From: a bacterium
Lineage (GTDB): Bacteria; Actinomycetota; Acidimicrobiia; Acidimicrobiales; CATQHL01
Assembly (NCBI GenBank): GCA_026706565.1
Contig: JAPOYM010000173.1
Coordinates: 1 to 38,285 of the forward strand
Reading direction: 5' to 3'
Length of the DNA: 38,285 nucleotides
Each line of letters starts with the position of its first letter. Position 1 is the stretch's first letter. The position numbers and the translations under genes are program-made. Shown here piece after piece: positions 1 to 19,805 of the stretch. The notes beneath the pieces were generated by a model. It had not been told where the DNA came from and made no database searches. It saw only the letters and a list, made by a program, of their open reading frames with translations.

Positions 1-131
1 CCACCGGCGCCAACGAGACCGCCGGCCGCTTCTGCCGCGGCCACTTCGACCTGCCGATGCGCAACTGCACCGTCACCCTCGACGGCGAGACGGTCGTGGA
101 CCGGGGCCGACTGCGAGCCGACCTGCACTGA
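1..131 (+). CDS. C-terminal end of a protein truncated by the window edge (unidentified; possibly aminopeptidase/dioxygenase-like)
   Basis: Open frame from position 3, ...TGANETAGRFCRGHFDLPMRNCTVTLDGETVVDRGRLRADLH*, ending TGA 129-131. Confidence 0.45.
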   Translation, partial: TGANETAGRFCRGHFDLPMRNCTVTLDGETVVDRGRLRADLH

Positions 132-186
132 CGAAACGACTTCTAGATTCTTATGCTGTTCTACTATATATTGATATACTCAATGC

Positions 187-437
187 ATGAAGATCCTGAC
201 GTCGGCCTACCGACACGGCGTGTCCGATGACGCGATTCGACACGCCTGGAAGAACGCATTGGGCTTCCACGACATCGAACCCGACCACGACCGCCGAAGA
301 GTCTCTGCATCGGCTCGGATCCGGCTGGTAACCTCCTTGAAGTGCTCTACTTCTGGATTGCGGACGACAATGTGGTCATTCACGCCATGCGACTCAGGCG
401 CAGGTTCCGGCACTATCTGACGAAAGGAAGGCAATGA
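187..437 (+). pseudogene. Small toxin-like protein, frameshifted
   Basis: Frame 1 gives MKILTSAYRHGVSDDAIRHAWKNALGFHDIEPDHD; a shifted frame continues PPKSLCIGSDPAGNLLEVLYFWIADDNVVIHAMRLRRRFRHYLTKGRQ* to TGA 435-437. One missing C near 291 would restore a single ~83 aa protein typical of short toxin-like families next to ribbon-helix-helix-type antitoxins. Confidence 0.6.
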
Positions 438-664
438 GTCAGAATTCTCAAAGAACACTAGGAGATGAGGAACTTACAGCTATCGCCATCGAATTTGAGA
501 AACGTGAATTCACACACGAGGAACTCGTCGCAATCGCAGCAACCCGCCGGAGCACGCCACGACCGATTGCAGGGCGGCCCTCGGCGAGAGACGACGGGCA
601 AGGCTGCAACCCGGTCGAGGATGGCTCGGGCCACATTGCGCAAGCTCGCGCGGATTCGCGATAG
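434..664 (+). CDS. Putative antitoxin-like partner, possibly also frameshifted at its C-terminus
   Basis: ATGA overlap with the preceding stop; MSQNSQRTLGDEELTAIAIEFEKREFTHEELVAIAATRR...GRPSARDDGQ, then loses protein-like character; another frame reads RMARATLRKLARIRDSDCSPSLVR. Confidence 0.4.
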   Translation: MSQNSQRTLGDEELTAIAIEFEKREFTHEELVAIAATRRSTPRPIAGRPSARDDGQGCNPVEDGSGHIAQARADSR

Positions 665-734
665 CGACTGTTCCCCCTCGCTCGTGAGGCTTCTCCGGCC
701 CCTCTCGCCATGAGCGTCCCGCGCCTGCCTACCG

Positions 735-1232
735 ATGCGCGACCCCGATGGCACTGTCCGCCCCTTCGAGAACGAGGCCGCCGATGAGGTGGCGGCGTCC
801 CTCGGCCTCACCGTCCGGAATCCCGAGACGCCCGAACTGCTCGGAACCACGTTCCTCCTCGTCGAGCCGACCGTCAGTGAGCACGACCTTGTGGTCGCCA
901 TCGAACGGTACTGGTGGCCGGCGCTGGAGGAGGACGACTTCAACGCGGTCGTCGAGGGCGACGAGGGCCTGCTCCATCCGAGACCGCGCAGCGACCCGGT
1001 GCTGGCAAGCTTCCGCGACGCGGACGATGAGACGGCGCGCGACCCCGTCAAGATGCATGTCAAGGCCCCGGCTGGATTCAGCGCGCACAACGGCGACGCT
1101 GGCACGTTCGTCGGCAGTCTCTCCCACGAGGCCGTAGTGTTCGAGTTCGCCAGCAAGCCCTACGGAGCCGACTGGACCGGGCGGCTCGTGGCCGAAGTCG
1201 ACCTTGACACATCGGAGGGCGAGGGATCGTGA
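735..1232 (+). CDS. Uncharacterised protein, first gene of the methyltransferase operon; possibly the C-terminal part of a larger protein
   Basis: 165 aa ORF with RNPETPELLGTTFLLVEPTVSEHDLVVAIERYWWPALEEDDFNAVV; stop overlaps the GTG start at 1229. No clear SD upstream; in-frame stop at 711-713. Confidence 0.6.
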   Translation: MRDPDGTVRPFENEAADEVAASLGLTVRNPETPELLGTTFLLVEPTVSEHDLVVAIERYWWPALEEDDFNAVVEGDEGLLHPRPRSDPVLASFRDADDETARDPVKMHVKAPAGFSAHNGDAGTFVGSLSHEAVVFEFASKPYGADWTGRLVAEVDLDTSEGEGS

Positions 1233-2209
1233 GCTCCGAATCCCGAATCGTGCGTCCCTTCCGAAGCACGCCACTGGACAAGGTTCTCAACTCGACCAGC
1301 GTCCTGTTCGGGGATCAGGTTTGCGAGGCGGATGCGGGCATCACGGTTGCCGATCCCGAAAGCTTCGCCCGCAGGAGCGGCCAGATCGTCTGGGCACCGG
1401 AGAGCGAGTTCGAGGACTTCAAGCGGGCGCTCGTGCTCGGGGCGTCCGACCTGGACGTCGAACCGTCGGCGCTAGGACTGCTGGCCGTCGCCTCAACCTC
1501 GTACATCAAGCGATCCGAAATCGTGTACCACCGTCCGCTCTCCGAGTTGGACGACCTCCAGCGGGTTACCTCGATTACAGATGGGCAGCGGCCGGTGCCG
1601 TTCCGAACGGGCTTCCACGGGGCGACGCTGGAGGTGTACGTGCTGCTCCTGCGGCAAGTTGAGAAGCGCCCACTCCGTCCATGGCGGAAGGGCACCTGGA
1701 TTTCCCGCGCTAAGTTCAGGATCGACGTCGAGAAGGGCGCGGCGCTCTTCCGTCCGATCCCGCTTGACGACGAGGCGCGCGAGCGCCTGGGGCTTCCCTC
1801 CGGTGCCGTGCGTTACGTCGACCTGGACGACCACGACGTCCTGGCGCCGTTCGAGGATTCCGAGCCGCCTCGCTTCTACATCGACGCGGACCTGCTCAAC
1901 AGGCTGGGTGCCCACCAGAACTCGCCGGCGGCGCGGGCGATCCAGGCGCAGTTGGCGCAGGACTTCATCGCCGCCGTCGTACATCGAGCCGCCGGCGAGG
2001 CACAACTCGACACGCATGCGTGGGAGGACGTCGAGTCCTCGCTGCTCGGCCGGGTCCTGCGCTTCACCGCCGGATCGGGTGCCTCCCGAGACGACCGGCA
2101 GCTGCTCCTCAAGCAGGTGAAGGACAACGCAGAGCGAACATTGGCGCGAACCGAGCACGCGATCGACGTCAGGAAGGCGCTGATCGACTCGCTGGAGGCC
2201 GACTCTTGA
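1229..2209 (+). CDS. Uncharacterised 326 aa protein of the methyltransferase operon
   Basis: Intact ORF with GTG start overlapping the upstream stop (GTGA) and a charged C-terminal helix; no recognised catalytic motif. Confidence 0.75.
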   Translation: MSSESRIVRPFRSTPLDKVLNSTSVLFGDQVCEADAGITVADPESFARRSGQIVWAPESEFEDFKRALVLGASDLDVEPSALGLLAVASTSYIKRSEIVYHRPLSELDDLQRVTSITDGQRPVPFRTGFHGATLEVYVLLLRQVEKRPLRPWRKGTWISRAKFRIDVEKGAALFRPIPLDDEARERLGLPSGAVRYVDLDDHDVLAPFEDSEPPRFYIDADLLNRLGAHQNSPAARAIQAQLAQDFIAAVVHRAAGEAQLDTHAWEDVESSLLGRVLRFTAGSGASRDDRQLLLKQVKDNAERTLARTEHAIDVRKALIDSLEADS

Positions 2210-2593
2210 GGTATCGGGCGCTGTCGAGGTCGAAGTGCGTGGAGTTGGCCCGCCGGATGGTGGCGGGCGAGACCCCCGTGCGTGCTCACCAGGATGTACG
2301 CCCGCGGGTCAGCTGTCGGCGGCCTCGACCATCTCGATTCCGCCACCGCCGTCAAAGGCACTGACTTCTGGCGGAGCTACGTCCTGCGGGTCCGGACCGC
2401 CACTGCGCCTTCTGTCGTGCGGGCGTTCGTGGCAATGCAGGCGGCGCATCCCCTGAAGACCGATGACCTCCGGGTCTTGGCCAAGGCGCTGACCAAGACC
2501 TGGGCAAACGTCGTACCGGTGATCTACGACGACGATGACGCCCGGGCACTGATCGACGAGTTGCGCCGGGAGATGTCCCCGATCAGCTCATGA
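2206..2593 (+). pseudogene. Uncharacterised ~130 aa operon protein, apparently frameshifted near 2278-2285
   Basis: TTG at 2206 overlaps the upstream stop: LRYRALSRSKCVELARRMVAGETPV; a shifted frame continues LTRMYARGSAVGGLDHLDSATAVKGTDFWRSYVLRVRTATAPSVVRAFVAMQAAHPLKTDDLRVLAKALTKTWANVVPVIYDDDDARALIDELRREMSPISS*. GTGCGTGC duplication at the shift site. Confidence 0.55.
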
Positions 2594-4002
2594 TGAGCCC
2601 GGTGCCTGGACCGGTCGAGCGCGTCAAACCGGGGACGCTTGCCGTTGGTCCAAGGGAGCGCTTCGCGTGGGAAGGGACGCGGGGAGTCCACACGCTTGAA
2701 CTCGGGGCGTTGGATCTCCGGTCGTTCGTGGAACTTCCTGGAGCGATCGGGCTAGTCGGCGACGGCCGCCCGGATCCCAAGGGAGATTGGTGGAGTGCCT
2801 ACCTGGTCGGTGAGCGCCCGGCGCCGGTTGCCGAGCCCGCCTCCGATCGACCGCTGCGGGCCGTGGATCTGTTCTGCGGCACCGGCGGACTGGCCTTGGG
2901 GGTGGCGCAGCTGGCCGCCGAGTTGGGCGTCCGGATGGTGACCGAGATGGTCGCGGACTCCGACGCCGAGGCGGTCGCGGTCTACGCCGCCAACCACGAC
3001 ACGCGGCTGCGCTGCATCAAGTCGGTCTCATCGCTCCTCGACTACCGCGTCAGGGGTAGGAGCGCGGATGCGGGCTTCGTCTACCCCCCGGAGATCGTGG
3101 ATCCAGGTCTCGCCGAGGCGGTGGGCGGGGTCGACGTGGTGATGGCGGGTCCGCCGTGCCAGGGTCACTCGAATCTGAACAACCGCACGCGCCGCAGCGA
3201 CAGGCGCAACACCTACTACCTGACGGTGCCGGCGTTCGCCGTTGCCGCCAGCGCACGCATGGCGATCATCGAGAACGTACCGGAGGTGGAGCACGACGAC
3301 AGACAGGTGGTCGAGGTGGCCCAGCGGCTCTTCGAGGCCGCGGGATACGGCGTGGTGCGCGGCACGCTCCGGGCTGACGCCATGGGCTGGCCGCAGACGC
3401 GGCGGCGCTCGTTCCTCGTGGCCCGGCGGGACGCCGCCCCGATCCCTCTCGACGTCGTCGCCGAGGCGCTGGCCGATGCGGGGCCGCGGACACTCGAGTG
3501 GGCGATCGGTGACCTCACCGACCGCGAGGACTGCGGCATCATGGACGTGGCGTCGGAGATGAGTCCGGAGAATCGGGAGCGGGTGGACTGGCTGTTCGAC
3601 AACGGTGAGTACGATCTGCCCAATGCGTGGCGCCCCGAGTGTCACCGCGACGGCACGACCTACGGCTCGGTTTACGGCCGGATGTGGCCCGACAAGCCCG
3701 CCCCCACGATCACCACCGGTTTCATGACGCCCGGACGGGGCCGCTACGTGCATCCGACCAGACGCCGCACACTGACCCCGCGGGAGGCCGCACGGATTCA
3801 GGGGTTCCCCGACACGTACCGCTTCGTGGCAGACCCGCGGCATCCGCCGTCGCGAGCGAAGCTGGCCAAGTGGATCGGCGACGCCGTGCCGATGCCCCTC
3901 GGCTACGGCGCGGCCCTGTCGGCACTGGGCCCGGGTCTCGACGCCACCGGTGGCTCCGGTTCGTCAGGCGGGACCGACAGTGACACGCACCTTGACAACT
4001 GA
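2590..4002 (+). CDS. DNA (cytosine-5) methyltransferase with an N-terminal extension
   Basis: C5-MTase motifs in order: VDLFCGTGGLALG (I), AGPPCQGHS (IV), IENVPEV (VI), PQTRRRSFLVARR (VIII), PTITTGFMTPGRGRYVHPTRRRTLTPREAARIQGFPDTYRF (IX/X). ATGA overlap with the upstream gene. Confidence 0.95.
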   Translation: MMSPVPGPVERVKPGTLAVGPRERFAWEGTRGVHTLELGALDLRSFVELPGAIGLVGDGRPDPKGDWWSAYLVGERPAPVAEPASDRPLRAVDLFCGTGGLALGVAQLAAELGVRMVTEMVADSDAEAVAVYAANHDTRLRCIKSVSSLLDYRVRGRSADAGFVYPPEIVDPGLAEAVGGVDVVMAGPPCQGHSNLNNRTRRSDRRNTYYLTVPAFAVAASARMAIIENVPEVEHDDRQVVEVAQRLFEAAGYGVVRGTLRADAMGWPQTRRRSFLVARRDAAPIPLDVVAEALADAGPRTLEWAIGDLTDREDCGIMDVASEMSPENRERVDWLFDNGEYDLPNAWRPECHRDGTTYGSVYGRMWPDKPAPTITTGFMTPGRGRYVHPTRRRTLTPREAARIQGFPDTYRFVADPRHPPSRAKLAKWIGDAVPMPLGYGAALSALGPGLDATGGSGSSGGTDSDTHLDN

Positions 4003-4121
4003 AGAGTGACGCCAGCCCGCTCCGCGACCCTCACAGGTGATAGCCAGCAGGCGGGGCCGGGGGGCGACAGCCTCGGGGGGTTGGCGATTGAAGAGCGGCG
4101 CTGGCCCGCTGCGCGATCCTC
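4001..4121. repeat. Imperfect 32 bp direct repeat (4001-4032 and 4090-4121) downstream of the methyltransferase
   Basis: GAAGAGTGACGCCAGCCCGCTCCGCGACCCTC versus GAAGAGCGGCGCTGGCCCGCTGCGCGATCCTC, 26/32 identical. Confidence 0.7.
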
Positions 4122-4136
4122 TTGGGGCCGTGTCGG

Positions 4137-4493
4137 CTAGAGGCGGCGCATCACCTTGCGGAGTTCATTGTTGACGGGGTCCACGGCGAAACCGCCGGAA
4201 CCCAGGGCCGTGACGCCCAGCAGCGGATCGACGTCGTCGGGGCCGAAGATGACGATGCCGCCCAGCCTGCGCCCCTCGAACTCCATCTGGGCGAGAGCCG
4301 TCTGAGTGTGGAACTCGCTGCCGTCGGCGAGCAGGTAGACAGCGTCCTCCAGCGGCTCGACGCCGATCGCTTCAAGGTGCCGGCGCGGCACGACCGAGTC
4401 GATCGCCCCGGTGTCCACCACGAACTCGCCCTCCCAGCAGCGCTGCGAGTCCGCTGGATTCCTGATCGTCACGTCTACACGGGTCTCGCCCAT
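4137..4493 (-). CDS. Retropepsin-like (clan AA) aspartyl protease family protein
   Basis: MGETRVDVTIRNPADSQRCWEGEFVVDTGAIDSVVPRRHLEAIGVEPLEDAVYLLADGSEF...GVTALGSGGFAVDPVNNELRKVMRRL; DTGA catalytic-type motif. Confidence 0.75.
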   Translation of the reverse strand: MGETRVDVTIRNPADSQRCWEGEFVVDTGAIDSVVPRRHLEAIGVEPLEDAVYLLADGSEFHTQTALAQMEFEGRRLGGIVIFGPDDVDPLLGVTALGSGGFAVDPVNNELRKVMRRL

Positions 4494-4640
4494 GGTGGTC
4501 CCTCCCTCTCTCGATGTGAGGACTCGTCCTCTCGGCGGCAGGCCCGGATCCGGCTGCGGCGGCTCGAGCTGATCCGACCTGGGTGCGACCATACTCGATC
4601 CCGGAGCTTTGTAACGCCCTGACAATGATTTACGGATGAT

Positions 4641-4656
4641 TCTGAAACATTTCAGA
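4641..4656. promoter_or_regulatory. Perfect palindrome TCTGAAA-CA-TTTCAGA
   Basis: 7 bp arms around a 2 bp centre in a locally AT-rich intergenic region between coaBC (3' end) and the aspartyl protease gene. Confidence 0.4.
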
Positions 4657-4677
4657 TCACCCATCGCGTCGTACCAG

Positions 4678-5892
4678 TCAGCGAGCGGCGCGCAGGGCCA
4701 CGACGCGGTCGAGGATCGCCTGAGCCACCTGGCGTTTGGATGTGAGCGGGACCGCGGTGCGGCCCGCAGCGTCGAGGAGGACCACCTCGTTGGTGTCACC
4801 GTCGAACCCGACGCTCGGCGCCGAGACGTCGTTGACGACGATGAGATCGGCGCCCTTCGTGCGCAGCTTGGCCTCGGCGTTAGCCAGAACGTCGCTGGTC
4901 TCGGCGGCGAAGCCGACCAGGGTCTCCACTTGGCCGCCGCGGCCCAGTTCCGCCAGGATGTCCGGGGTCGGCTCGAGAGTGACGGTGCGCGCCTCGCCGG
5001 ACTTCTTGATCTTGTCCGCCGCCGGCGCCGCCGGACGGTAGTCGGCCACCGCGGCGGCCATCACAACCACCTCGGCGGGGAGCCGGTCCACGACCGCGGC
5101 GCGCAGCTCCTCGGCGGTCTCCACCAGCACTAGGTCCACGCTGTCGGGCAGCGGGCGCCGCACCGTTGCGACGAGGGAGACCTTGGCGCCCCGGGCCGCT
5201 GCCTCCACTGCGACCGCGTAGCCCTGCTTGCCCGACGAGCGGTTGCCGACGAAGCGCACCGGGTCGATCGGTTCGCGGGTTCCGCCCGCCGTCACGAGCA
5301 CTCGCAGCCCGACCATGTCCCTGACGGGGGCCTGAGGGCCTGCAGCCAGGGCCTCCGCGGCGGCGGCCAGGATCGACTCTGGAGCAGCCAGGCGGCCGGC
5401 GCCCGTATCGCCGCCGGCGAGGCGGCCCTCCTCCGGCGCGACGACGGTCACGCCGCGCTCGGCGAGCAGGCGGAGGTTGTCCCGCACGGCGGGGTGCTCC
5501 CACATCTCGGTGTGCATCGCGGGGCACACCACCACCGGCGCCCGGGTCGCCAGAAGGGTGGCGCTCAGCAGGTCGCCAGCCAGGCCGGCGGCGTAAGCGC
5601 CGATCACCCGGGCGGTGGCGGGACACACCACGACAAGATCGGCCTGCTGCCCGAGGGTGACGTGAGGGATCGGATCGTCGTCGTCGAAGAGCGAGAGGCG
5701 GGCCCGCTCGCTGGCCAGCGCCGAGAACGTGGCCTCGCCCACGAAACGCTTCGCCGCGGGGGTCAGAACCGGCGTGACATGGGCGCCCGCGTCGACGAGG
5801 CGCCGACAGACCTCGACGGCCTTGTAGGCGGCGATCCCACCGCTGACGGCGAGAACGACGCGGCGTCCGGCGAACGCCCTCATCGGCCCCAC
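4678..5892 (-). CDS. coaBC: Bifunctional phosphopantothenoylcysteine decarboxylase / phosphopantothenate--cysteine ligase
   Basis: VLAVSGGIAAYKAVEVCRRL N-terminus; VCPAMHTEMWEHPAV; VTAGGTREPIDPVRFVGNRSSGKQGYAVA CoaB motif. Confidence 0.95.
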   Translation of the reverse strand: MGPMRAFAGRRVVLAVSGGIAAYKAVEVCRRLVDAGAHVTPVLTPAAKRFVGEATFSALASERARLSLFDDDDPIPHVTLGQQADLVVVCPATARVIGAYAAGLAGDLLSATLLATRAPVVVCPAMHTEMWEHPAVRDNLRLLAERGVTVVAPEEGRLAGGDTGAGRLAAPESILAAAAEALAAGPQAPVRDMVGLRVLVTAGGTREPIDPVRFVGNRSSGKQGYAVAVEAAARGAKVSLVATVRRPLPDSVDLVLVETAEELRAAVVDRLPAEVVVMAAAVADYRPAAPAADKIKKSGEARTVTLEPTPDILAELGRGGQVETLVGFAAETSDVLANAEAKLRTKGADLIVVNDVSAPSVGFDGDTNEVVLLDAAGRTAVPLTSKRQVAQAILDRVVALRAAR

Positions 5893-5919
5893 CGTCGCCG
5901 CACCGGGCGCTCGGCGGCC

Positions 5920-6255
5920 TCAGCCGGCCTGTTCGGGCGGCGCCCCGGCCAGTTCCAGCGTCGGCTCGTCGTCTTCAGACTCCGGGGGATCCTGGACGGT
6001 CACCGCGACGATCTTGCCCTGCTCGATCTCCTGCAGGGCGATCGACAGCGGCTTGCGGGCCGTCGAAGAGACCTGCGGCGGGATCATCCGCCCGAGTCCC
6101 TCGCCGAGTTGGCCGTAGTAGGAGTTGATCTGCCGGGCGCGCGTGGCGCCCAGGGAGACCAGCCGGAACTTGGAGTCGTCGGCCCTCTCGAGCAACTCCT
6201 CCACCGGAGGGTTGATCATGCTGTTGGTGTCATCGCCGACATCGGCTTCACGCAT
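5920..6255 (-). CDS. rpoZ: DNA-directed RNA polymerase omega subunit
   Basis: NPPVEELLERADDSKFRLVSLGATRARQINSYYGQLGEG...KPLSIALQEIEQGKI; between gmk and coaBC as usual. Confidence 0.9.
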   Translation of the reverse strand: MREADVGDDTNSMINPPVEELLERADDSKFRLVSLGATRARQINSYYGQLGEGLGRMIPPQVSSTARKPLSIALQEIEQGKIVAVTVQDPPESEDDEPTLELAGAPPEQAG

Positions 6256-6354
6256 CGTCGCTCCCCGGAGTGGTCGTGAGGTACATCGTCGGGTCTGGCT
6301 CGACCGCCGACGCAACGCTTCAGTCTACCGAGCGCTCCCGGTGACCCGGCCAGT

Positions 6355-6382
6355 GGATTCCGGCTCTCGCCGGAATGACGAC
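6355..6382. repeat. Dispersed palindromic intergenic repeat, copy a
   Basis: GGATTCCGGCTCTCGCCGGAATGACGAC; arms ATTCCGGC/GCCGGAAT. Confidence 0.75.
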
Positions 6383-6383
6383 G

Positions 6384-6422
6384 GGGCGGGCGGACTGGGC
6401 GGGCGGACCGGGCGGGCGGATC
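6384..6422. repeat. Tandem repeat, 3 x 13 bp (GGGCGGGCGGAYY)
   Basis: GGGCGGGCGGACT / GGGCGGGCGGACC / GGGCGGGCGGATC ending just before the gmk stop at 6424. Confidence 0.85.
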
Positions 6423-6423
6423 G

Positions 6424-6972
6424 TTAGCGGCGGCGGTCGTCGATGATCCGCCCCATTTCGGCCACGGTCTCGTCCAGGTCGGCGTTCACGACCATGACCG
6501 CGCCGAGTTCACGGGCGGTTTCCCGCTCGCCGGGCCCGTAGGACAGTCGGGCCCGCACATGGTCCTCGCTGTCGCCCCTCCCGCGCAAGCGGTGCGCCTG
6601 ATCCGAGTCGGACGGCGCTTCGAGGAAGAGCAGCAGCGCCTCCCGGTGGCGGGCGCGCACCTGCCGGGCGCCTTGGACGTCGATCTCCAAGAGGATGTCA
6701 TGGCCCGGCGGCGGATCGGGATGGGGCGTGCCGTAGCGGTACTCGCCGAAGTCGGTCCACTCCAGGAAGCCCCCAGCGGCGATCGCCGCGTCGAAGACGG
6801 CGCGGTCCACGAAGCGGTAGGCGTCGTCGGGCTCGCCGGCGCGCTGCGGCCGAGTCGTCCACGAGCGGCTGAGCCAGAGCCGATCGTCCTGGCTGACGAG
6901 CAGGCGCGCCAACGTGCTCTTGCCGGACCCGCCGGGTCCGGAGAGGACGATCAGCAGTGGTGATGTTGCCAG
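6424..6972 (-). CDS. gmk: Guanylate kinase; start codon uncertain, no ATG/GTG/TTG upstream of the P-loop
   Basis: LLIVLSGPGGSGKSTLARLLVSQDDRLWLSRSWTTRPQRAGEPDDAYRFV...GGFLEWTDFGEYRYGTP...ILLEIDVQGARQVR. In-frame CTG at 6972, 6957 or 6954 are candidates. Confidence 0.9.
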   Translation of the reverse strand: MATSPLLIVLSGPGGSGKSTLARLLVSQDDRLWLSRSWTTRPQRAGEPDDAYRFVDRAVFDAAIAAGGFLEWTDFGEYRYGTPHPDPPPGHDILLEIDVQGARQVRARHREALLLFLEAPSDSDQAHRLRGRGDSEDHVRARLSYGPGERETARELGAVMVVNADLDETVAEMGRIIDDRRR

Positions 6973-7013
6973 TCCCGGTGCCCTCGAAGGCCGACGCCAG
7001 CCCTCGAAGGAGG

Positions 7014-7328
7014 CTACGACAGTCGGGCTAGGAGTGCCTCGCGCTGCTTGACGCCGAGCCCTCGCAGCCGCCGCGTCTCGCTGATGTCGAGTTCCTCCAT
7101 GAGCCTTCGGGCCGTGACCTTTCCGATTCGGGGCATCGACTCCAGAACGGCCAGTACCTTCGTGCCGCCGACCACATCGTCGTCGGCGGCCATGTCGAGC
7201 ACATCGGCAAGCGTCAGATCACCGATCTTGAGGCGATCCTTCAGCTCCGCCCGCCGACGGCGAACCGCGGCAGCCTTGGCGAGAGCCTCCTGACGTTGTG
7301 CATCACTGAGTTGTGGGGGTAGTGGCAT
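7014..7328 (-). CDS. mihF: Actinobacterial integration host factor
   Basis: MPLPPQLSDAQRQEALAKAAAVRRRRAELKDRLKIGDLTLADVLDMA...MPRIGKVTARRLMEELDISETRRLRGLGVKQREALLARLS; adjacent to gmk. Confidence 0.92.
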   Translation of the reverse strand: MPLPPQLSDAQRQEALAKAAAVRRRRAELKDRLKIGDLTLADVLDMAADDDVVGGTKVLAVLESMPRIGKVTARRLMEELDISETRRLRGLGVKQREALLARLS

Positions 7329-7421
7329 GGCGGCGACTGTAACCGTGTTGAAGCCCGTAGCGGCGCATTTCGCGGAATGACCGGCCACACCCCTGCGGGC
7401 ACCGGCCGGCGGGCCCCCGAC

Positions 7422-8123
7422 TCAGCCGCCCAGCAGGGCCGCAGCGGCCTCGGCTGGATCGGTCGCCGCGGTCACCGGGCGCCCGATGACGAGGATGTCG
7501 GCACCCGCGGCGACGGCGGCGGCCGGCGTGGCCACCCTGGCCTGGTCGTCGGCGGCGGCGCCGCGGGGTCGGATCCCCGGCACGGCCCGCAGCAGGCCGG
7601 GAACGGCCGCCCGGATCGCCGGCAGATCACCGGCGGCACACACCACGCCACCGCATCCGGCCGCCGCCGCGGCGCGGGCGCGGCGGGCCAGCACGTCCGG
7701 CTCAGCCAGCGAATCGCTGGTCAGCACGGTGACGGCCAACGCCACGGGCGCCTCGGCGCCGGCAGGCCGCGCCGCGGCGAGCCCCTCCGCGCCTGCCCGG
7801 AGCATGTCCGGACCCCCGGCGGCGTGCAGCGTGACATAGCGTGCGCCGAGGCCGGCGAGGGAGCGGGCCGCTCCAGCGACCGTGTTGGGGATGTCGTGCA
7901 GCTTCAGGTCCACGAACACCTCGAAACCCTCGTCGCTCAGGGACAGCACGGCCCGGGGCCCCACGGCGCCGAACAGCTCGAGGCCCACCTTGGCGATAGC
8001 GAACCAGGGACGAAGGATCCGGGCCAGCCCCAGCGCCCTGTCGAGATCGTGGGTGTCCAAGGCGACCGCGCAGGCCGCGGGATCCAATGGCGCCGCCGGC
8101 GGGGCGGCGCCCTCGGCCGTCAC
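7422..8123 (-). CDS. pyrF: Orotidine 5'-phosphate decarboxylase
   Basis: VALDTHDLDRALGLARIL...KVGLELFGAVG...VFVDLKLHDIPNTVAGAARSL...GIRPRGAAADDQARVATPAAAVAAGADILVIGRPVT; GTGA overlap with pyrD. Confidence 0.95.
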   Translation of the reverse strand: MTAEGAAPPAAPLDPAACAVALDTHDLDRALGLARILRPWFAIAKVGLELFGAVGPRAVLSLSDEGFEVFVDLKLHDIPNTVAGAARSLAGLGARYVTLHAAGGPDMLRAGAEGLAAARPAGAEAPVALAVTVLTSDSLAEPDVLARRARAAAAAGCGGVVCAAGDLPAIRAAVPGLLRAVPGIRPRGAAADDQARVATPAAAVAAGADILVIGRPVTAATDPAEAAAALLGG

Positions 8124-9069
8124 GACGGTCCCTCGGCGGACCCGTGGGCCGCGCCGGTGAGGCCCCGAACCGACGCCGCGCCCCGGCGCCGGCACCAGGC
8201 TGCGAGCTCGGCGCACACCCGCTCGGGGGCGCGCGGCGAGGCGAACGTGGCGGTGCCCACCTGCACGGCGCAGGCGCCCGCCATCAGCATCTCCACGGCG
8301 TCGATCCCGCGCGCCACCCCGCCGACACCGAGGATCGGGAGGTCGCCGAGCGCGGCGTGGCACTCCCAGATCGCCCGCACCGCCAGCGGGCGGATGGCCG
8401 GGCCCGACACGCCGCCGCCTCCGGCGCCCAGGACGGGGCGGCGCTCGGCCACGTCGATGACCATGCCCGGGACCGTGTTGATGAGCGTCACGGCCGCTGC
8501 GCCGGCCTCCCGGGCGGCTGCCGCCACCGCCACGATGTCGGGCGCTGCGAGGCTCAGCTTCGCCCAAAGAGGCAGGCCCGCGGCGGCCGCGGCCTCGACG
8601 GCGGCGGCGGTGGACCCCGGCGCCCGGGCGAAGAGGTGCTCGCCCTCGTCAAGGTTGGGGCAGGAGAGGTTCACCTCCACCGCCAGGATGCCGGAGCGGT
8701 GCGGGGCGAGCAGCTCGGCGGCCCGGCGGTACTCGGCGACGGTGCGCCCCCAGATGCTGGCCACTACCCGCACGCCCGCCGCCTGCAGCGCCGGCAACTG
8801 CTCGGCGGCCCAGGCCGCCACGCCCGGCCCCTGCAGGCCGACGCTGTTGATCATCCCCGCGGGGGTGGCGTCGAGCCGGGGGGCGGGGTTCCCCGGCCAT
8901 GGCGCAGCGGCGAGCGACTTCACGACCACCGCGCCGGGCGCCGTCAAGTCCATCACCCCTGCCAGTTCGGTCCCGTAGCCCGCGGTCCCCGAGGCGCACA
9001 GCACCGGGTTCGGCAACTCCACGGCGCCCACCGCGGTCCGCAGGTCCACCGGGTGCCGCGAGCGCCGCC

Positions 9070-9073
<4 letters not shown>
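8120..9073 (-). CDS. pyrD: Dihydroorotate dehydrogenase, class 1 (catalytic-Cys type)
   Basis: [16 protein letters not shown]...[12 protein letters not shown]...[13 protein letters not shown]...[31 protein letters not shown]. Confidence 0.93.
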
Positions 9074-12437
<3,364 letters not shown>

Positions 12438-12438
<1 letters not shown>

Positions 12439-13613
12439 CAGCGGTCAGCGGGGGCGTCGGACTCGAGGCCGCAGCCAGCAGCGAATCCGGCCCCGTCGGG
12501 CGCCGAGCCGTGCAACTCCCCCAGCCAGGCGTCGAGGGTTGCGAAGACGTGGTGGCTGTCGTGGGGGCCGGGGCCCGCTTCGGGGTGGTGCTGAACGCCG
12601 AAGGCCGCCGCCTCGAGGCTGCGGAGGCCTTCGACGGTGCCGTCGTTGAGGTTGAGGTGGGTGACCTCCACACCCGGCGCGCCGCTGTCGGCCACGCTGA
12701 AGTTGTGGTTCTGGCTGGTGATCTCGACGGCGCCGCTGGCGAGGTGGCGCACCGGATGGTTGCCACCGTGGTGCCCGAAGGGCAGTTTGAAGGTCTCGCA
12801 GCCGAGGGTGGCGGCGAGGAGCTGATGACCCAGGCAGATGCCGAAGACGGGGACCGCGTCCAGCAGCCCGCCGATGAGGTCCGTGGCGCCCGCCACGGCG
12901 GCAGGATCGCCGGGGCCGTTGGACAGCAGCACGCCGTGAGGGCGCCGGGCCAGGATCCGTTCGGCGCCGTAGCCGGCGGGAACCACCTCGACGTGGCCGA
13001 AGGCCGCGAGCCGGCGCAGGATCGAGGTCTTCACGCCGAAGTCGACGACGCTGAGGCGCCAGGGGGGCCGGCCGTCGGCGCGAGCAGTGGGCCGCCGGTA
13101 GGGACGCTCCGCGGTCACCGCGGCGACGAGGTCGACGCCGTCTGTGCCGGGCTCGGCGGCGGCGGCGGCTCGCAGGTCGGCCTCCGCCGCGCTGCCGAAG
13201 GCGCCCACCATGGCGCCCGCCGCGCGGATGTGCCGGGTGAGACGGCGCGTGTCGACGCCCGCGAGGCACGACAGGCCGCAGCGCATGAGGAACGAGTCCA
13301 GACTTGCTGTGGCGCGCCAGCTGCTGGGCGTCGCTACCAGGTCGCGCACCACCAAGCCCCGGCAGAACGGGCGGCGGCTCTCGAAGTCGGCGTCGACGAC
13401 CCCGTAGTTGCCGATGTGCGGGTAGGTGAATGCAATGATCTGCCCGGCGTAGGAGGGATCGGTGAGAACCTCCTGGTAGCCGGACATGACGGTGTTGAAC
13501 ACCACTTCGCCCGCGGTGACGCCCCCCGGCGGCGGCGCGCCGGCCAGCTCGCCCTCGAAGGTCTCGCCGTCGGCGAGGACCAGAGCGCCGCCGCGGCGCG
13601 CCGCGGCCCTCAT
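12438..13613 (-). CDS. carA: Carbamoyl-phosphate synthase small subunit
   Basis: [16 protein letters not shown]...[24 protein letters not shown]...[16 protein letters not shown]...[20 protein letters not shown]. Confidence 0.97.
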
Positions 13614-14908
13614 CGTTGCGCCTCGCCGTCGATGACCACCGGCTCGCCCGCCACGATCGTGTGGCGCACCCTGCCCCGCAGCCGTCGGCCCGCATAGGGC
13701 GTGTTGCGGCTGCGGCTGGCGCCGCCGGAGCCGTCCACTGTCCAGGTTGCTTCCGGGTCGAAGACGCAGAGATTCGCCGGGCGCCCCGCGACTACCGGGC
13801 CGCCGTGGGCGGCGTCGATCCCGGCGAGTCGCGCCGGCCGCCACGACAGCAGCGCCAGAACGTCCGCTACGGGCATGTGGAGTTCGGTCAGAGCGAGCGG
13901 CAGCGCCGTCTCCAGACCCAGCATCCCCGGCGGGGCCTCCTCGAAGGGCAGGTCCTTGGCGTCGGGGGTGTGCGGCGCGTGATCGGTGGCGATGGCGTCC
14001 ACTGTCCCGGCGGCCAGAGCGGCGCGCACGGCGGCCACGTCGGCCTCCGGGCGCAGCGGCGGGTTCACCTTGAACGCGGCGTCGTAGGAGGCGCAGCACT
14101 CGTCGGTGAGCGTGAAATGGTGGGGCGCCACCTCGGCGGTGACCGCCACGCCGCTGCGCCGGGCCGCCTCGAGGATCGCCACCGAGCCCGCCGTGGAGAG
14201 ATGTTGGAAGTGTACCGGCGCCCCGGTGAGGCGGCTGAGGGCCACGTCGCGCATCACCATGATCTCCTCGGCCTCGGCGCAGATGCCGGGGATGCCCAGC
14301 CGGGAAGACCACTCGCCCTCGTGCATGTGCCCGCCGGCGGCGAGCGAGTCCACCTCGCAGTGCTGCGCCAACCGCACTCCGAGGTCTGAGGCGTACTCCA
14401 AGGCGCGGCGCATGACCGCGGCGTCCTGCACCCCGTGGCCGTCGTCGGTGAACAGCCGGACCCCGAGGGCCGCCATCTCGCCCATCGGCGCTAGCCGCCC
14501 TCCGGCCCGGCCTACGGTGATGGCGCCCGCCACCTCCACATCGCAGAGCGCGGCGCGGCCCAACTCCTGCACCTCCCGCACCACTGCGGCGGAGTCGATG
14601 GCCGGGCTGGTGTTGGGCATTGCCACCACCGCGCAGAACCCTCCGAGTACCGCGGCGCGGCTGGCGGATTCCACGGTCTCGGCCTGCTCGCCGCCGGGCT
14701 GGCGCAGATGGGCGTGCAGGTCCACGAGGCCCGGCGCCACGACGCAGCCGCGGGCGTCGAGGGTTCGGTCGCCGGCCGCTCCCGGGGCCAGACCCCCGCC
14801 GACGGCCGCGATCACCCCGTCGGGGCTGACGACCACGTCGGCCGGCCGCTCGCCGGTGGCGTCTATCACCGTGCCGCCGGCGATGAGGAGCCGGGGACGC
14901 TCAGCCAC
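13610..14908 (-). CDS. pyrC: Dihydroorotase
   Basis: GTG start; VVAPGLVDLHAHLRQPGGEQAETVESASRAAVLGGFCAVVAMPNTSPAID...AIATDHAPHTPDAKDLPFEEAPPGMLGLETALPL. Confidence 0.96.
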   Translation of the reverse strand: MAERPRLLIAGGTVIDATGERPADVVVSPDGVIAAVGGGLAPGAAGDRTLDARGCVVAPGLVDLHAHLRQPGGEQAETVESASRAAVLGGFCAVVAMPNTSPAIDSAAVVREVQELGRAALCDVEVAGAITVGRAGGRLAPMGEMAALGVRLFTDDGHGVQDAAVMRRALEYASDLGVRLAQHCEVDSLAAGGHMHEGEWSSRLGIPGICAEAEEIMVMRDVALSRLTGAPVHFQHLSTAGSVAILEAARRSGVAVTAEVAPHHFTLTDECCASYDAAFKVNPPLRPEADVAAVRAALAAGTVDAIATDHAPHTPDAKDLPFEEAPPGMLGLETALPLALTELHMPVADVLALLSWRPARLAGIDAAHGGPVVAGRPANLCVFDPEATWTVDGSGGASRSRNTPYAGRRLRGRVRHTIVAGEPVVIDGEAQR

Positions 14909-15929
14909 CGCCCACCCCGGCCGGCGACGCCCCTTCGGCGGCCGGGGCGGCCGCTACGTCGGCTGTCGAGGCGGTCCCCGGCTGGGCCCCCAGCAGCCAG
15001 AAGAGCACCGCCATCCGCACCGAGACGCCGTTGGCGACCTGCTCGGCGATCGTGGTGCAGGCCATCTCGGGCACTTCGGCGCCGATCTCGACCCCGCGAT
15101 TCATGGGACCGGGATGCATCACGATGGCGTGGTCGGCCAGGCGGCGGGCGCGTTCGGCGCTCAGCCCGAAGCGCTCGTGGAACTCGCGCAGGCTGGGCAG
15201 CAGCGCCCGCTCCTGCCGCTCGCGTTGCAGGCGCAGCAGGTAGACCACATCCGCCCGCGCCAGGACATCGTCGATGCGGCTGCTGACGCCCACACCCCAG
15301 CCGTCCACCGCGGGGGGCAGGAGCGTGGCCGGCGCCACCAGCGTGACCGCCGCGTCGAGCATCCGCAGCGCCGCCACTAGCGACCGGGCCACCCGCGAGT
15401 GGGCGATGTCGCCCACGATCGCCACATGCCGCCCCTCAATGCTCCCCAACCGCCGGCTGATCGTGTAACAGTCCAGCAGGGCCTGGGTGGGGTGCTCGTG
15501 GCGGCCGTCGCCGGCGTTGACCACCGCGGCGTCGAGCCAGCGGGAAAGCTGCACCGCCACGCCGGCGCTGCGGTGGCGCACGACCACGCAGTCGACGCCC
15601 ATGGCTGTCACCGTCTGGGCGGTGTCGCGCAGCGACTCTCCCTTGCTCAGCGAGGAGCTGCCGGCGCTGAAGGCCATCGTGTCGGCCGAGAGGCGCTTGG
15701 CCGCGGTCTCGAAGGAGAGGCGGGTGCGGGTGGAGTCCTCGAAGAACAGCGAGGCCACCGTCCTGCCGCGCAGGGCGGGGACCTTCGGGATGGGCCGCGC
15801 GTTGACCTCGGCGAAGCTGTCGGCGAGGCGCAGGATCTGCCCGATCCCGTCGGTGCCGAGGTCGCCGACGGCCAGGAGGTGCCGCCGAGTGACGGCGCCT
15901 GCCGCGGGACCCGCCGGCGGCCCGCTCAC
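14901..15929 (-). CDS. pyrB: Aspartate carbamoyltransferase catalytic subunit
   Basis: VASLFFEDSTRTRLSFETAAKRLSAD...SSLSKGESLRDTAQTV...VVVRHRSAG...NAGDGRHEHPTQALLDCYTI...MHPGPMNRGVEI. Confidence 0.97.
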   Translation of the reverse strand: MSGPPAGPAAGAVTRRHLLAVGDLGTDGIGQILRLADSFAEVNARPIPKVPALRGRTVASLFFEDSTRTRLSFETAAKRLSADTMAFSAGSSSLSKGESLRDTAQTVTAMGVDCVVVRHRSAGVAVQLSRWLDAAVVNAGDGRHEHPTQALLDCYTISRRLGSIEGRHVAIVGDIAHSRVARSLVAALRMLDAAVTLVAPATLLPPAVDGWGVGVSSRIDDVLARADVVYLLRLQRERQERALLPSLREFHERFGLSAERARRLADHAIVMHPGPMNRGVEIGAEVPEMACTTIAEQVANGVSVRMAVLFWLLGAQPGTASTADVAAAPAAEGASPAGVGGG

Positions 15930-16498
15930 ACCGTCTCTCCCAGAACGACGCCCCGGTCGCTGACGTCCACCAGCTCCTCGCGCCGGGTCGGCAGGTTCTT
16001 GCCCACATAGTCGGCCCTGATGGGCAGCTCGCGGTGGCCGCGGTCGACCATCACCGCCAGCTGCACCGCTCGGGGGCGCCCGAAGTCGCAGACCGCGTCG
16101 AGCGCGGCGCGCACGGTGCGCCCCGTGTACAGCACGTCGTCCACCAGCACCACGGTGCGCCCCGTCAGGTCGCCGCTGATGCTGGTGGGGGCTTGGGGGA
16201 GCACGGGCCGCAGCCCGATGTCGTCGCGGTGCATGGCCACGTCCAGCGACCCGCACGGCACCTCGGCGCCGTCGATGTCCGCCAGCAGCGCGGCCAGGCG
16301 TTCGGCCAGGAACACTCCCCCGGTCTGCAGCCCCACCAGCACCAACTCCGACGTGGCGCCGTTGCGTTCGATGATCTCGTGCGCCATGCGCCGCAGCGCC
16401 CGCTCGAGCGCCGCGCCGTCCATGATCTCGACGCGGGGAACAAAGTCTCCCGGGGTCCCGGCGTGACGTCCGGCTACGAGAGGTCCAGCTATAGGCAC
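15926..16498 (-). CDS. pyrR: Bifunctional pyr-operon regulator / uracil phosphoribosyltransferase; start codon uncertain
   Basis: [18 protein letters not shown]...[80 protein letters not shown]. Confidence 0.95.
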
Positions 16499-16565
16499 AG
16501 GGCCCTCAGGGCCGCCGGGGCCGCTCTCCGCCCGTACACTGCGCTCGCGATCGGACAGCGTTCTA

Positions 16566-16607
16566 CCTCCGGTCCGTACGGGCCTCGCCGGACCCGCTTA
16601 ACGGTCC
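16566..16607 (-). promoter_or_regulatory. PyrR-binding RNA element (stem, internal bulge, hexaloop) followed by an SD-like GGAGG
   Basis: Minus strand: GGACCGU UAAGC GGGUC-CGGCGA-GGCCC GU ACGGACC | GGAGG. Hexaloop CGGCGA fits CNGNGA; UCCGGCGAGGC fits the UCCNGNGAGGY core. Confidence 0.8.
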
Positions 16608-16719
16608 GCTGACGGTACCACGACCGGCCCCCGCCACCACGCATCCCGCCAGCCGGTGAGCGCTCCGGATCGATCTGCCGTGCCGCTCGGGTCACACCTC
16701 CGCGCTGCGCCCCTCACAA

Positions 16720-16938
16720 ATGCATTCGAAGCTCGGCGGCGGCGTCATCTGGGAGTTCAGCACCGAGACCTGGCAGGAGATCGCGGCGCGGGGCCGGCGC
16801 TCTGAAGCCGGCTGGGGCACCATCGCCGCCGCGGTCTGGGAGGGCCGCCGCTTCGCCGAGGAGATCGAGGACCCCAGCGACGATGCCGACGCCACCCCCT
16901 ACCGCCGGGAGGTCACCCGGCTGGCCCGAAGGACCTGA
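16720..16938 (+). CDS. Small hypothetical protein (72 aa)
   Basis: MHSKLGGGVIWEFSTETWQEIAARGRRSEAGWGTIAAAVWEGRRFAEEIEDPSDDADATPYRREVTRLARRT; GC-rich third positions; no obvious SD. Confidence 0.4.
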   Translation: MHSKLGGGVIWEFSTETWQEIAARGRRSEAGWGTIAAAVWEGRRFAEEIEDPSDDADATPYRREVTRLARRT

Positions 16939-16950
16939 CCGATCGGGGCT

Positions 16951-17442
16951 CTAACGGTCCCAGAACCCCCGGTGGGCCTCGACGGCCTCCGCCGCTAGGT
17001 GCGGGCCGCTGACTTCGATGCGGCGCTGCCCGCTGGCGAGCACGGCGCGGCAGCCGAGCCCGGTCATGGTGGGGTTCTCGCCGCCCTCGCCGTCGGCCAG
17101 CGGCAGCAGATCCTGCTCGCTCATGGCGTAGACGAGCCGGTTCACACCGACCCAGTACATGGCGCCCGCGCACATCGAGCACGGCTCGCAGCTCGAGTAC
17201 AGGGTGCCGCCGGCGATCTGGGCAGCGCTGAGGGTGAGTCCGATCTGCCGTGCCAGATTGGTCTCGGCGTGGCCGAGCCGGTCGCCGCTGGTGACCACCG
17301 AGTTCTCCGCCTCGAGGAGCACGTCGCCGCCGCGCTCCGCGAAGACCGCCCCGAAGGGGTGGTTGCCGTTGGCGCGCGCGCTCTTCGAGACCCCGATCGC
17401 CCGCCGCAGGAACCCCTCGTCGCGTTCGCTGAGTGCGCTCAT
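16951..17442 (-). CDS. Nucleoside/nucleobase deaminase (cytidine/deoxycytidylate deaminase superfamily)
   Basis: NHPFGAVFAERGG; GHAETNLARQ (HAE); YSSCEPCSMCAGAMYWVGVNRLVYAM (PCxxC); SD GGGAGGTGA before ATG. Confidence 0.9.
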   Translation of the reverse strand: MSALSERDEGFLRRAIGVSKSARANGNHPFGAVFAERGGDVLLEAENSVVTSGDRLGHAETNLARQIGLTLSAAQIAGGTLYSSCEPCSMCAGAMYWVGVNRLVYAMSEQDLLPLADGEGGENPTMTGLGCRAVLASGQRRIEVSGPHLAAEAVEAHRGFWDR

Positions 17443-17507
17443 GTCAAGTCACCTCCCGTCTCGGACATCAGGACCGGCCGCAGCCTCACGCCTCACCGCT
17501 CGCCGCC

Positions 17508-17535
17508 GGATCCCGGCCTTCGCCGGAATGACGAC
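17508..17535. repeat. Dispersed palindromic intergenic repeat, copy b
   Basis: GGATCCCGGCCTTCGCCGGAATGACGAC. Confidence 0.75.
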
Positions 17536-17580
17536 GGCCACGACGATCGCCCTCAGGCTTCTGTGGGGATGCATCCGGCG

Positions 17581-18009
17581 TCACGTCCGGACCCGGCGGG
17601 CGATGGTGGCCAGCACGCCGTTCACGAAGCGCCCCGAGGACGCCGTGGAGTAGAGGTCGGCCAGTTCCACGGCCTCGTTCAGCACCACCGCTGTCGGCGT
17701 CTGCGGCCGGTGCGCCAGTTCGTAGACCGCGAGGCGCAGGATGGCGCGGTCCACCGGCGCCATGCGCGCCACCGACCAGTCCACCGCCACCTCGCCCAGC
17801 AGCTCGTCGATGGCCGCGCCGTGGACGGCGACGCCCTCGACCAGTTCTGCGGCCAGCGGTTGCGGCGGCAGGTGCTGGCGCCGCAACAGTTCGAGAGTGT
17901 CGAGTTGGCGGGCTTCGGCCTCGTACAGGAGCGCCAGCGCCCGCTCGCGCGCCCCGCGGGCCTCGCTGCGGGCGCCCGGCGTGGCGTCGGGGTCGGCGTG
18001 CCCGCTCAC
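17581..18009 (-). CDS. nusB: Transcription antitermination factor NusB
   Basis: ARERALALLYEAEAR...ARMAPVDRAILRLAVYELAHRPQTPTAVVLNEAVELADLYSTASSGRFVNGVLATIARR. Confidence 0.95.
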   Translation of the reverse strand: MSGHADPDATPGARSEARGARERALALLYEAEARQLDTLELLRRQHLPPQPLAAELVEGVAVHGAAIDELLGEVAVDWSVARMAPVDRAILRLAVYELAHRPQTPTAVVLNEAVELADLYSTASSGRFVNGVLATIARRVRT

Positions 18010-18569
18010 CCTCGGGCGATGTACTGGCCCGAGCGGGTGTCCACCTTGATGCGCTCGCCCGGCTCGATGAACAGCGGCACCGACACCACCAGACCGGTCT
18101 CGGTGACGGCCGGCTTGGTTGCGCCGGAGACCCGGTCGCCCTGGATGCCCGGCTCGGTCTCGGTGATGGCCAGGGTGACCGCGGCGGGCAGGTCGGTGCC
18201 CACGATCTCGCTCCCGTACATCTGCAGGATCACCGAGTCACCCTCGATGATGTAGCTCCCGGCGTCACCCAGCGTGGCCTCCTCCACGTCGAGCTGCTCG
18301 TAGGTCTCGCCGTCCATGAACACCCGGGCCTCACCGTCGCGGTACAGGTACTGCATGGAGCGCTTGTCGATGATGGCCCGCTCCACCTTCTCGCCGGCCC
18401 GGAAGGTGCGCTCCAGCACCGCCCCGGTGCGGGCGTTCTTGAGGGTGGTGCGCACGAATGCGTGGCCCTTGCCCGGCTTGACGTGCTGGAACTCCACGAC
18501 CGAGAACAGTCCCTCGCCCAAGTCGAGGGTCATGCCCGTCTTCAGGTCGTTGGTGGTGATGGCGACCAT
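18006..18569 (-). CDS. efp: Elongation factor P
   Basis: TTNDLKTGMTLDLGEGLFSVVEFQHVKPGKGHAFVRTTLKNARTGAVLERTFRAGEKVERA. Confidence 0.98.
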   Translation of the reverse strand: MVAITTNDLKTGMTLDLGEGLFSVVEFQHVKPGKGHAFVRTTLKNARTGAVLERTFRAGEKVERAIIDKRSMQYLYRDGEARVFMDGETYEQLDVEEATLGDAGSYIIEGDSVILQMYGSEIVGTDLPAAVTLAITETEPGIQGDRVSGATKPAVTETGLVVSVPLFIEPGERIKVDTRSGQYIARG

Positions 18570-18596
18570 TCCTACCTCCGTCGGGTGTGGCCGGGC

Positions 18597-19805
18597 TCAG
18601 CCCACGACCAGCGTCTTGGGCGAGCACGTGAGGCGCCGGCAACCGTCGTCGGTCACGACCACGGTGTCCTCGATGCGCACGCCTCCCTCGCCGGCCAGGT
18701 AGATGCCCGGCTCCACCGTGACGACCTCGCCGGCGGCGAGCACCTCGTCGCTGCGGCTGCTGAGGCTGGGCGCCTCGTGGATGTCGAGACCCACCCCGTG
18801 CCCGGTGCTGTGCAGGAAGGCCTCACCCCAGCCCGCGTCGTTGATGACCTCGCGGCAGACCGCGTCCACGTCCGCGCAGGGCACACCGCCGGCGACGGCC
18901 TCGACGCCGGCCTGCTGCGATGCCCGCACCACCTCATAGACCCTCCCACCGGGGGGCCGCGGCTCGCCAACGCAGACCGTGCGGGTCATGTCGGAGCGGT
19001 AGCCGTCGATGATCGCCCCGAAGTCGATGACCACCAGATCCCCGGGCTCGATGCGGCGCCGGCCCGGTCGGGCGTGGGGCAGGGCGCTGTTCTCGCCGGC
19101 CGCCACGATGGTGTCGAACGCCGAGCCGGAGGAGCCGCGCCGACGCATGAGGTAGTCCAGTTCGGCGGCCACCTCGCCTTCGGTGGGGCGCTCGGCCAGT
19201 CGGGGGAGCACCTCGGCGAGGGCGTCGTCGGCCGCCGCGGCGGCCGCCGCCATGCGTGCTGCCTCTTCGGGCGACTTGCGGCGACGCAGGCGCTCGATCA
19301 CACCGGTCGCGGGCAGCAACTCGGCGCCGGGGAACCACTCTCGGGCGAACCGCCGGTAGCGGGACCAGCTCACATCGTCCGCCTCCAGGGCGAGACGACC
19401 CAGGCCGCTGACCGCAGCGGCCGCCGCCTCCTTCTGCTCGTCGCCGCGGTCGGCAATGACGACCCTGCCGTCGACGCCCGCGGCCGCAAGCTCGGCGGGC
19501 GCCTGCGTGGCGTAGCGGCCGTCGGTGATGACCAGCAGATCGTCGGGCGCCACGACCACGATCATGGCGGAGCCGCTGAAACCGCAGACCCAGCGACCGT
19601 TCGCCAGGTTGGTGATGACGAGCGCGTCGCAGGGCTGCGGCCCGTCGCCGTCTTCGCCGGGGCCGCCGCGGTCGGGCGCGTCCGGGCCTGCTGCCACCGC
19701 GACCCCGCCCTCCAGCGCGGCCCGCACGGCTTCCGCCCTGCCAGCGAGCAGCAGCGGCGGCAGATCCTCCGCTCCGGGGGGCGCCGCCGCGTCGGTGACA
19801 GCCAT
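18597..19805 (-). CDS. pepP: Xaa-Pro aminopeptidase (M24 family)
   Basis: SGSAFDTIVAAGENSALPHARPGRRRIEPGDLVVIDFGAIIDGYRSDMTRTVCVG...FLHSTGHGVGLDIHEAPSLSSRSDEVLAAGEVVTVEPGIYL. Confidence 0.93.
   Translation of the reverse strand: MAVTDAAAPPGAEDLPPLLLAGRAEAVRAALEGGVAVAAGPDAPDRGGPGEDGDGPQPCDALVITNLANGRWVCGFSGSAMIVVVAPDDLLVITDGRYATQAPAELAAAGVDGRVVIADRGDEQKEAAAAAVSGLGRLALEADDVSWSRYRRFAREWFPGAELLPATGVIERLRRRKSPEEAARMAAAAAAADDALAEVLPRLAERPTEGEVAAELDYLMRRRGSSGSAFDTIVAAGENSALPHARPGRRRIEPGDLVVIDFGAIIDGYRSDMTRTVCVGEPRPPGGRVYEVVRASQQAGVEAVAGGVPCADVDAVCREVINDAGWGEAFLHSTGHGVGLDIHEAPSLSSRSDEVLAAGEVVTVEPGIYLAGEGGVRIEDTVVVTDDGCRRLTCSPKTLVVG

Follow-up and report, generated by a model that had tools for sequence, protein, structure and literature searches.

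A probable broken copy of a methyltransferase-linked, ATP-dependent restriction-like operon in an acidimicrobial genome

Predicted restriction-modification (R-M) operons can combine GHKL ATPases of the MORC and paraMORC families with cytosine methylases and Vsr nucleases, and these ATPases have been proposed to use ATP to loop the DNA between the sites of recognition and cleavage (Iyer, Abhiman and Aravind 2008, PMC2292703). A second point of reference is PDC-M33, a candidate system catalogued in PADLOC (models PDLC04582-04586); a literature search on PDC-M33 or DUF6339 found no paper. In this work we analysed a stretch of 38,285 nt from a member of the Acidimicrobiales (hereafter, the window), in which a methylase operon lies at 735-4002. 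Sequence comparison suggests that this operon is probably a recently broken copy of a conserved ATP-dependent R-M-like defence system, with the gene order A-B-C-M(-V), of which the methyltransferase (MTase) survives. The features of the locus are collected in Table 1.

Table 1. Features of the operon and its surroundings (G, L and C numbers are our handles for genomes, loci and contigs)
Feature	Position in window	Strand	Basis or remark
3' end of upstream neighbour gene	1..124	+	89% identity to G560:C341 3321-3444, upstream of the same operon in the congener
Small gene pair, toxin-antitoxin-like by eye	187..664	+	three-frame translation; 482-558 matches G560:C341 3523-3599
Deletion 1 junction	730..746	.	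729 nt of the congener (A start and GHKL domain) replaced by 17 nt; blastn against G560:C341
Remnant of gene A (GHKL/Topo VI-B-like ATPase)	735..1232	+	57-61% aa identity to A of L013/L015
Deletion 2 junction	1023..1027	.	net 693 nt of A gone, in frame; flanking matches overlap by 5 nt
Gene B, 326 aa, intact	1229..2209	+	25-71% identity to 10 relatives
Remnant of gene C (DUF6339-like)	2206..2593	+	5' 24 codons, 332-nt deletion near 2277, then 3' part 2282-2593
Gene M, C5-cytosine DNA methyltransferase, 470 aa, intact	2590..4002	+	PF00145 2.1e-32
Vsr site after M in congener G561; gene absent in window	4003..4136	.	L044 699-1145, Vsr directly after M
Aspartyl-protease-like ORF	4137-4799	-	PF13975 9.8e-07
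coaBC, downstream neighbour marking the shared locus	4678-5892	-	PF04127/PF02441

The operon in the window and its counterpart in congeners

The initial annotation had described four ORFs, each overlapping the previous stop by 4 nt. The extents of the ORFs of 165, 326 and 470 aa, starting at 735, 1229 and 2590, were confirmed on checking, as were the overlaps GTGA at 1229 and TTGA at 2206, but the ORF that opens at 2206 ends at 2364, after 52 aa, short of the MTase. It is the different frame of the 3' part of C that overlaps the MTase at ATGA, and comparison with the same-genus copy in G560 indicated that a single frameshifting deletion joins the two frames. The overlaps are not due to chance, since the same 4-nt spacing is found in intact relatives, between B and C and between C and M (e.g., in L012) and between A and B and between B and C in L015. 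On sequence comparison, 735-4002 is thus a four-gene operon by ancestry, in which two genes (A and C) are broken and two (B and M) intact.

Two same-genus genomes, G560 and G561, carry the operon locus beside coaBC (L042 and L044). The order in G560 is neighbour gene, small genes, A, B, C, M, a DUF222/HNH gene and coaBC, and in G561 it is M, Vsr, DUF222/HNH gene and coaBC. The window has kept the left and right neighbours of its congeners, with the Vsr and DUF222/HNH genes both missing, which indicates inheritance of the operon at this position, followed by the loss of some of its parts. In the small gene pair upstream of the operon, the three-frame translation revealed a frameshift in the first gene and a late loss of frame in the second; a Pfam search of the pair gave no match.

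The deletion map, drawn against contigs C341 and C259 of G560, which overlap by about 140 nt, suggests that three deletions deprived A of its ATPase domain and of a central stretch, and C of a central stretch; V is absent. Gene A encodes 620-665 aa in intact relatives and C, when intact, about 235 aa. In the window, 750-1022 pairs with A of L013 and L015 and the alignment then jumps to the C-terminus of A, so that the remnant lacks residues 1 to about 220 and with them the ATP-binding domain; it contains no poly-G/C tract and no match to PDC-M33A was obtained in PADLOC. With the ATPase domain and the middle of both A and C lost and V absent, the restriction arm should be dead. These results do not support a working four-gene system in the window genome, nor the proposal that the 165-aa protein is the effector, as this protein is what deletions have left of a GHKL ATPase, the ATPase domain and 231 further codons being gone. 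They agree with the other option of the initial annotation, a methylation-linked module whose effector has been lost, given that A and C are partly deleted and M is intact.

Substitutions in the remnants are still coding-like, with dN/dS values against G560 of 0.13 for the C remnant and 0.23 and 0.39 for the A pieces; the values for B, M and coaBC were 0.27, 0.33 and 0.14. This pattern implies that the breakage is recent or, alternatively, an assembly error. According to the latter explanation, the deletions are artefacts of assembly or binning and the organism carries an intact A-B-C-M, and it draws on the source of the window, which is all of contig C3 in a metagenome-assembled genome (MAG) of 187 contigs that is 75.6% complete, on the coding-like substitutions themselves, and on the fact that three separate deletions within 2 kb are many. 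Nevertheless, we consider it quite unlikely, as the deletions are internal to one 38-kb contig and have clean and open flanks, the neighbours coaBC, rpoZ, gmk, pyrF and pyrD are undamaged, and other relatives are broken too, L014 by many frameshifts and L045 by a deletion. In the latter (L045:1573-2747, on G075:C33), this deletion has fused the middle of A with the C-terminal part of M. A frameshift that was suspected in the gmk gene of the window was ruled out, its frame being open.

Gene families and their distribution

For the window alone, it is correct that only the last gene can be recognised, but relatives make A and C recognisable as well. With the 326-aa B protein as query, intact operons were detected in G001 (L012) and G022 (L013), a decayed one in G127, and further B loci in L015 (Acidimicrobiia) and L016 (Gemmatimonadetes); a search with PDC-M33A added four B-family loci (L084, L086, L087 and L088). 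The gene order of this B type is always A-B-C-M, often with V, and A-B-C-M is intact in L012, L013, L015, L084 and L086. The occurrence is patchy, with 4 of 198 genomes of the class and 3 of 397 of the phylum.

The A proteins of L012 and L013 match the PADLOC model PDC-M33A (7e-11 and 3e-15), and haloarchaeal A proteins match it at 2e-22 and 4e-36; in Pfam, HATPase_c_3 was found in 2 of 18 members of the family, with a best value of 0.003. Because a search of A against PDB sequences gave no match, the structure of the full L013 protein was predicted (pLDDT 80, pTM 0.69). Foldseek placed Topo VI-B as its best match (9o8p_B, E 3e-10), with the Hsp90 protein TRAP1 at 7e-8; the alignment to Topo VI-B has about 10% sequence identity and a low TM-score of 0.32. 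Two conserved motifs, ExxxNSWDA (in the stretch REVIQNSWDA) and GGSYGYGK, fit the GHKL N-box and lid in sequence. The predicted model and these motifs indicate that A of intact relatives is a GHKL ATPase with a Bergerat ATP-binding fold. For gene C, matches of intact relatives to PDC-M33C were weak (0.003 and 0.016), and the C homologue of L013 has a weak DUF6339 match (5.6e-5), just above the cutoff.

The B protein, of about 330 aa across relatives, gave no significant match in Pfam, PADLOC, NCBIfam or PDB sequences, and its predicted model (pLDDT 79) gave none among PDB folds or viral folds. No nuclease fold or motif was found in B, and a search for it in viral contigs and plasmids returned none. 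The middle genes of the window, G001, G022, G602 and haloarchaeal records were compared with the PDC-M33B model with no match; a PDC-M33B match in G601 belongs to a different locus. Homology of B to the middle proteins of other PDC-M33-type loci was considered and left unproven by profile comparison, in which the best probability was 2.7%. The B gene adjoins C and M in all 12 genomes that have it (12/12). The suggestion that the 326-aa protein acts as the effector thus found no support: B is intact and always accompanied by the MTase, yet it has no nuclease fold or motif.

The assignment of M as an intact C5 MTase with its core motifs was borne out by a PF00145 score of 113 against a cutoff of 22 bits and by the visible motifs DLFCGTGG, GPPCQ, ENV, QTRRR and LTPREAARIQGFP. 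Its best PADLOC model is DruM2 of Druantia (2.7e-84), DrmMII was also matched, and the protein is 82% identical to M of a congener. Members of the V family match PF03852 at 2e-15 to 2e-16; the Vsr gene adjoins M in L012, L013, L015 and the congener G561, lies near the operon in L014 and L086, and is absent from about half of the B-type loci. A search for Vsr in the window gave no match. It was likewise right that no restriction gene stands beside M: there is none in the window, and the core operon of relatives has Vsr and no known restriction endonuclease. Further MTase and Vsr pairs occur in the window's own genome (G000, C61 23150-24656 and C103 6188-6785), and these could act in trans.

Loci of the A-x-C kind with other middle genes have an MTase nearby in 4 of 14 cases and none adjacent in 10 of 14 by our own count. 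Co-occurrence with a C5 MTase, which had been proposed as a check, thus holds for B but not for the wider A and C families, which are mostly without an adjacent MTase. Regarding breakage, an intact A is always accompanied by an intact M (5/5 loci), and where A is broken, M is also broken in three of six loci (L014, L045 and L088) and intact in the window, G560 and L087. The direction of this pattern is that expected if A-B-C attacks unmethylated DNA, in a small sample in which it is not significant (p about 0.12, Fisher estimate on scorable loci only).

Several neighbourhoods of relatives deserve mention. In L012, a 107-aa gene, Vsr, an REase-ARP-like PD-(D/E)XK gene (PF22558) and a 243-aa gene follow M at 12374-14764, and a RecQ-like helicase lies further on; this region is possibly a defence island. 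In L082 (2730-9618), a PDC-M33-type module adjoins a C5 MTase, a NaeI restriction endonuclease (PF09126, 1.1e-82) and Vsr. In L021, on a plasmid of Halomicrobium urmianum (1-19002), two PDC-M33-type A-x-C modules flank a DrmMII-like MTase and a Vsr-like nicking endonuclease, near DISARM-type DrmC/DrmB/DrmA genes; L020 is similar.

Homopolymer tracts in gene A

Five long tracts of 9-17 nt were found in A genes, four of which are out of frame. A loses its frame at or beside a homopolymer in G560 (C9; C341 at about 4853, L105/L089), L087 (C17, at 8014), L088 (G13, at 9399) and the PDC-M33-type locus L047 (C11, at 9577), and the G11 tract of L015 (at 8468) is in frame. Against about 0.23 tracts expected from genome-wide run counts, with G562 excluded, the five observed represent an enrichment of about 20-fold (P about 4e-6, in a post hoc test). 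Contigs of G562 break at G/C runs inside A. In two genomes, tracts of G15 (L076:805) and G12 (L079:6435) also precede A-family genes by about 720 nt. Some of the MAG tracts are probably artefactual, as they fall at contig ends or cluster in G562, G703 and G642. The idea that all poly-G tracts are sequencing artefacts was rejected, since in G601, the main contig of which is a single 3-Mb chromosome, each of the two A genes has a tract. Phase variation of the ATPase A through poly-G/C tracts is a serious but unproven possibility. Going further, the B-type operon might be an undescribed, phase-variable restriction system driven by a Topo VI-B-like ATPase, in which slippage at the A tract toggles the restriction arm, M keeps protecting and B serves as specificity or cleavage subunit; we offer this picture tentatively, as it seems to us somewhat unlikely.

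Proposed function and comparison with described systems

We hypothesize that M, an intact C5 MTase, methylates a cytosine-containing site and would thereby mark self DNA, and that A, B and C, in view of the fold of A and the linkage of the three genes, may assemble into an ATP-powered clamp or remodelling complex acting on DNA that lacks methylation. Cleavage would then fall to a nuclease, which may be the Vsr-type enzyme often encoded beside M, an enzyme provided in trans, or B itself, through an active site that escaped recognition. Alternatively, Vsr may be involved solely in T:G mismatch repair at methylated sites. In the window genome, the intact M would act as an orphan methyltransferase.

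Another explanation is that the module is not a defence system, and that M, V and the ATPase take part in epigenetic regulation, in shaping the chromosome or in repairing deaminated 5-methylcytosine. Such a role is favoured by the repair function of Vsr in E. coli, by the fact that no restriction nuclease was recognised in A, B or C, and by the compaction of DNA by eukaryotic MORC proteins. However, the patchy distribution and repeated inactivation fit defence better than housekeeping, and relatives are located beside R-M and DISARM genes, so that we regard a non-defence function as distinctly improbable. A complete four-gene system with the 165-aa or the 326-aa protein as effector is hardly credible, despite the tight overlaps and an intact B always linked to M, because the 165-aa ORF has lost the ATPase domain together with another 231 codons present in its homologues, the frame of C is disrupted and B has no nuclease fold or motif.

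Under the preferred interpretation of a recently broken R-M-like copy, the operon of the window is ordinary as a single decayed locus, and it points to a rare, phylogenetically scattered and uncharacterised methylase-linked variant of PDC-M33. An unexplained methylase operon can thereby be treated as a defined system of five genes that is open to testing and has intact counterparts in other genomes, and PDC-M33, a defence candidate with no function attached, is now tied to a methylase and a Vsr nuclease. Our findings also suggest that the Topo VI-B-like ATPase is a costly, frequently inactivated component.

Compared with described systems, Topo VI-B comes first among the structural matches to the full A model, but no Topo VI-A/Spo11 partner was seen with A, the TM-score is low and the domain arrangement differs in detail. 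As for Druantia type II and DISARM class 2, M scores best with DruM2 and also matches DrmMII, and a PDC-M33-type module lies near DrmC/DrmB/DrmA-type genes on the haloarchaeal plasmid. Nevertheless, neither DruE/F/G nor DrmA/B/C/E is present in the operon or its intact homologues, and the earlier statement that signature genes of BREX, DISARM and Druantia are missing holds with PADLOC models for this operon and for intact homologous operons. With PDC-M33, the B type shares the gene order A-x-C and, in intact relatives, an A that matches PDC-M33A, and C is probably related to PDC-M33C/DUF6339, to which its matches are weak. With regard to a named system, the A family and, more weakly, the C family match this catalogued candidate, but the middle gene does not: B matches neither PDC-M33B nor other PDC-M33-type middle proteins, and in the B type C is always followed by a C5 MTase gene, often with Vsr, whereas most PDC-M33-type loci are without. 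With the MORC/paraMORC operons (PMC2292703), the B type shares a GHKL ATPase with a presumed transducer domain, a cytosine methylase and Vsr. It differs from them in that its core operon has no SFII helicase gene and no recognised RE-fold nuclease gene except Vsr, in the extra proteins B and C, and in that no named paraMORC family was assigned to A. By analogy, the B-type operon fits the MORC/paraMORC looping scheme, with B and C as extra parts, and if the ATPase A powers restriction, the proposed role of MORC-like ATPases in restriction would become directly testable.
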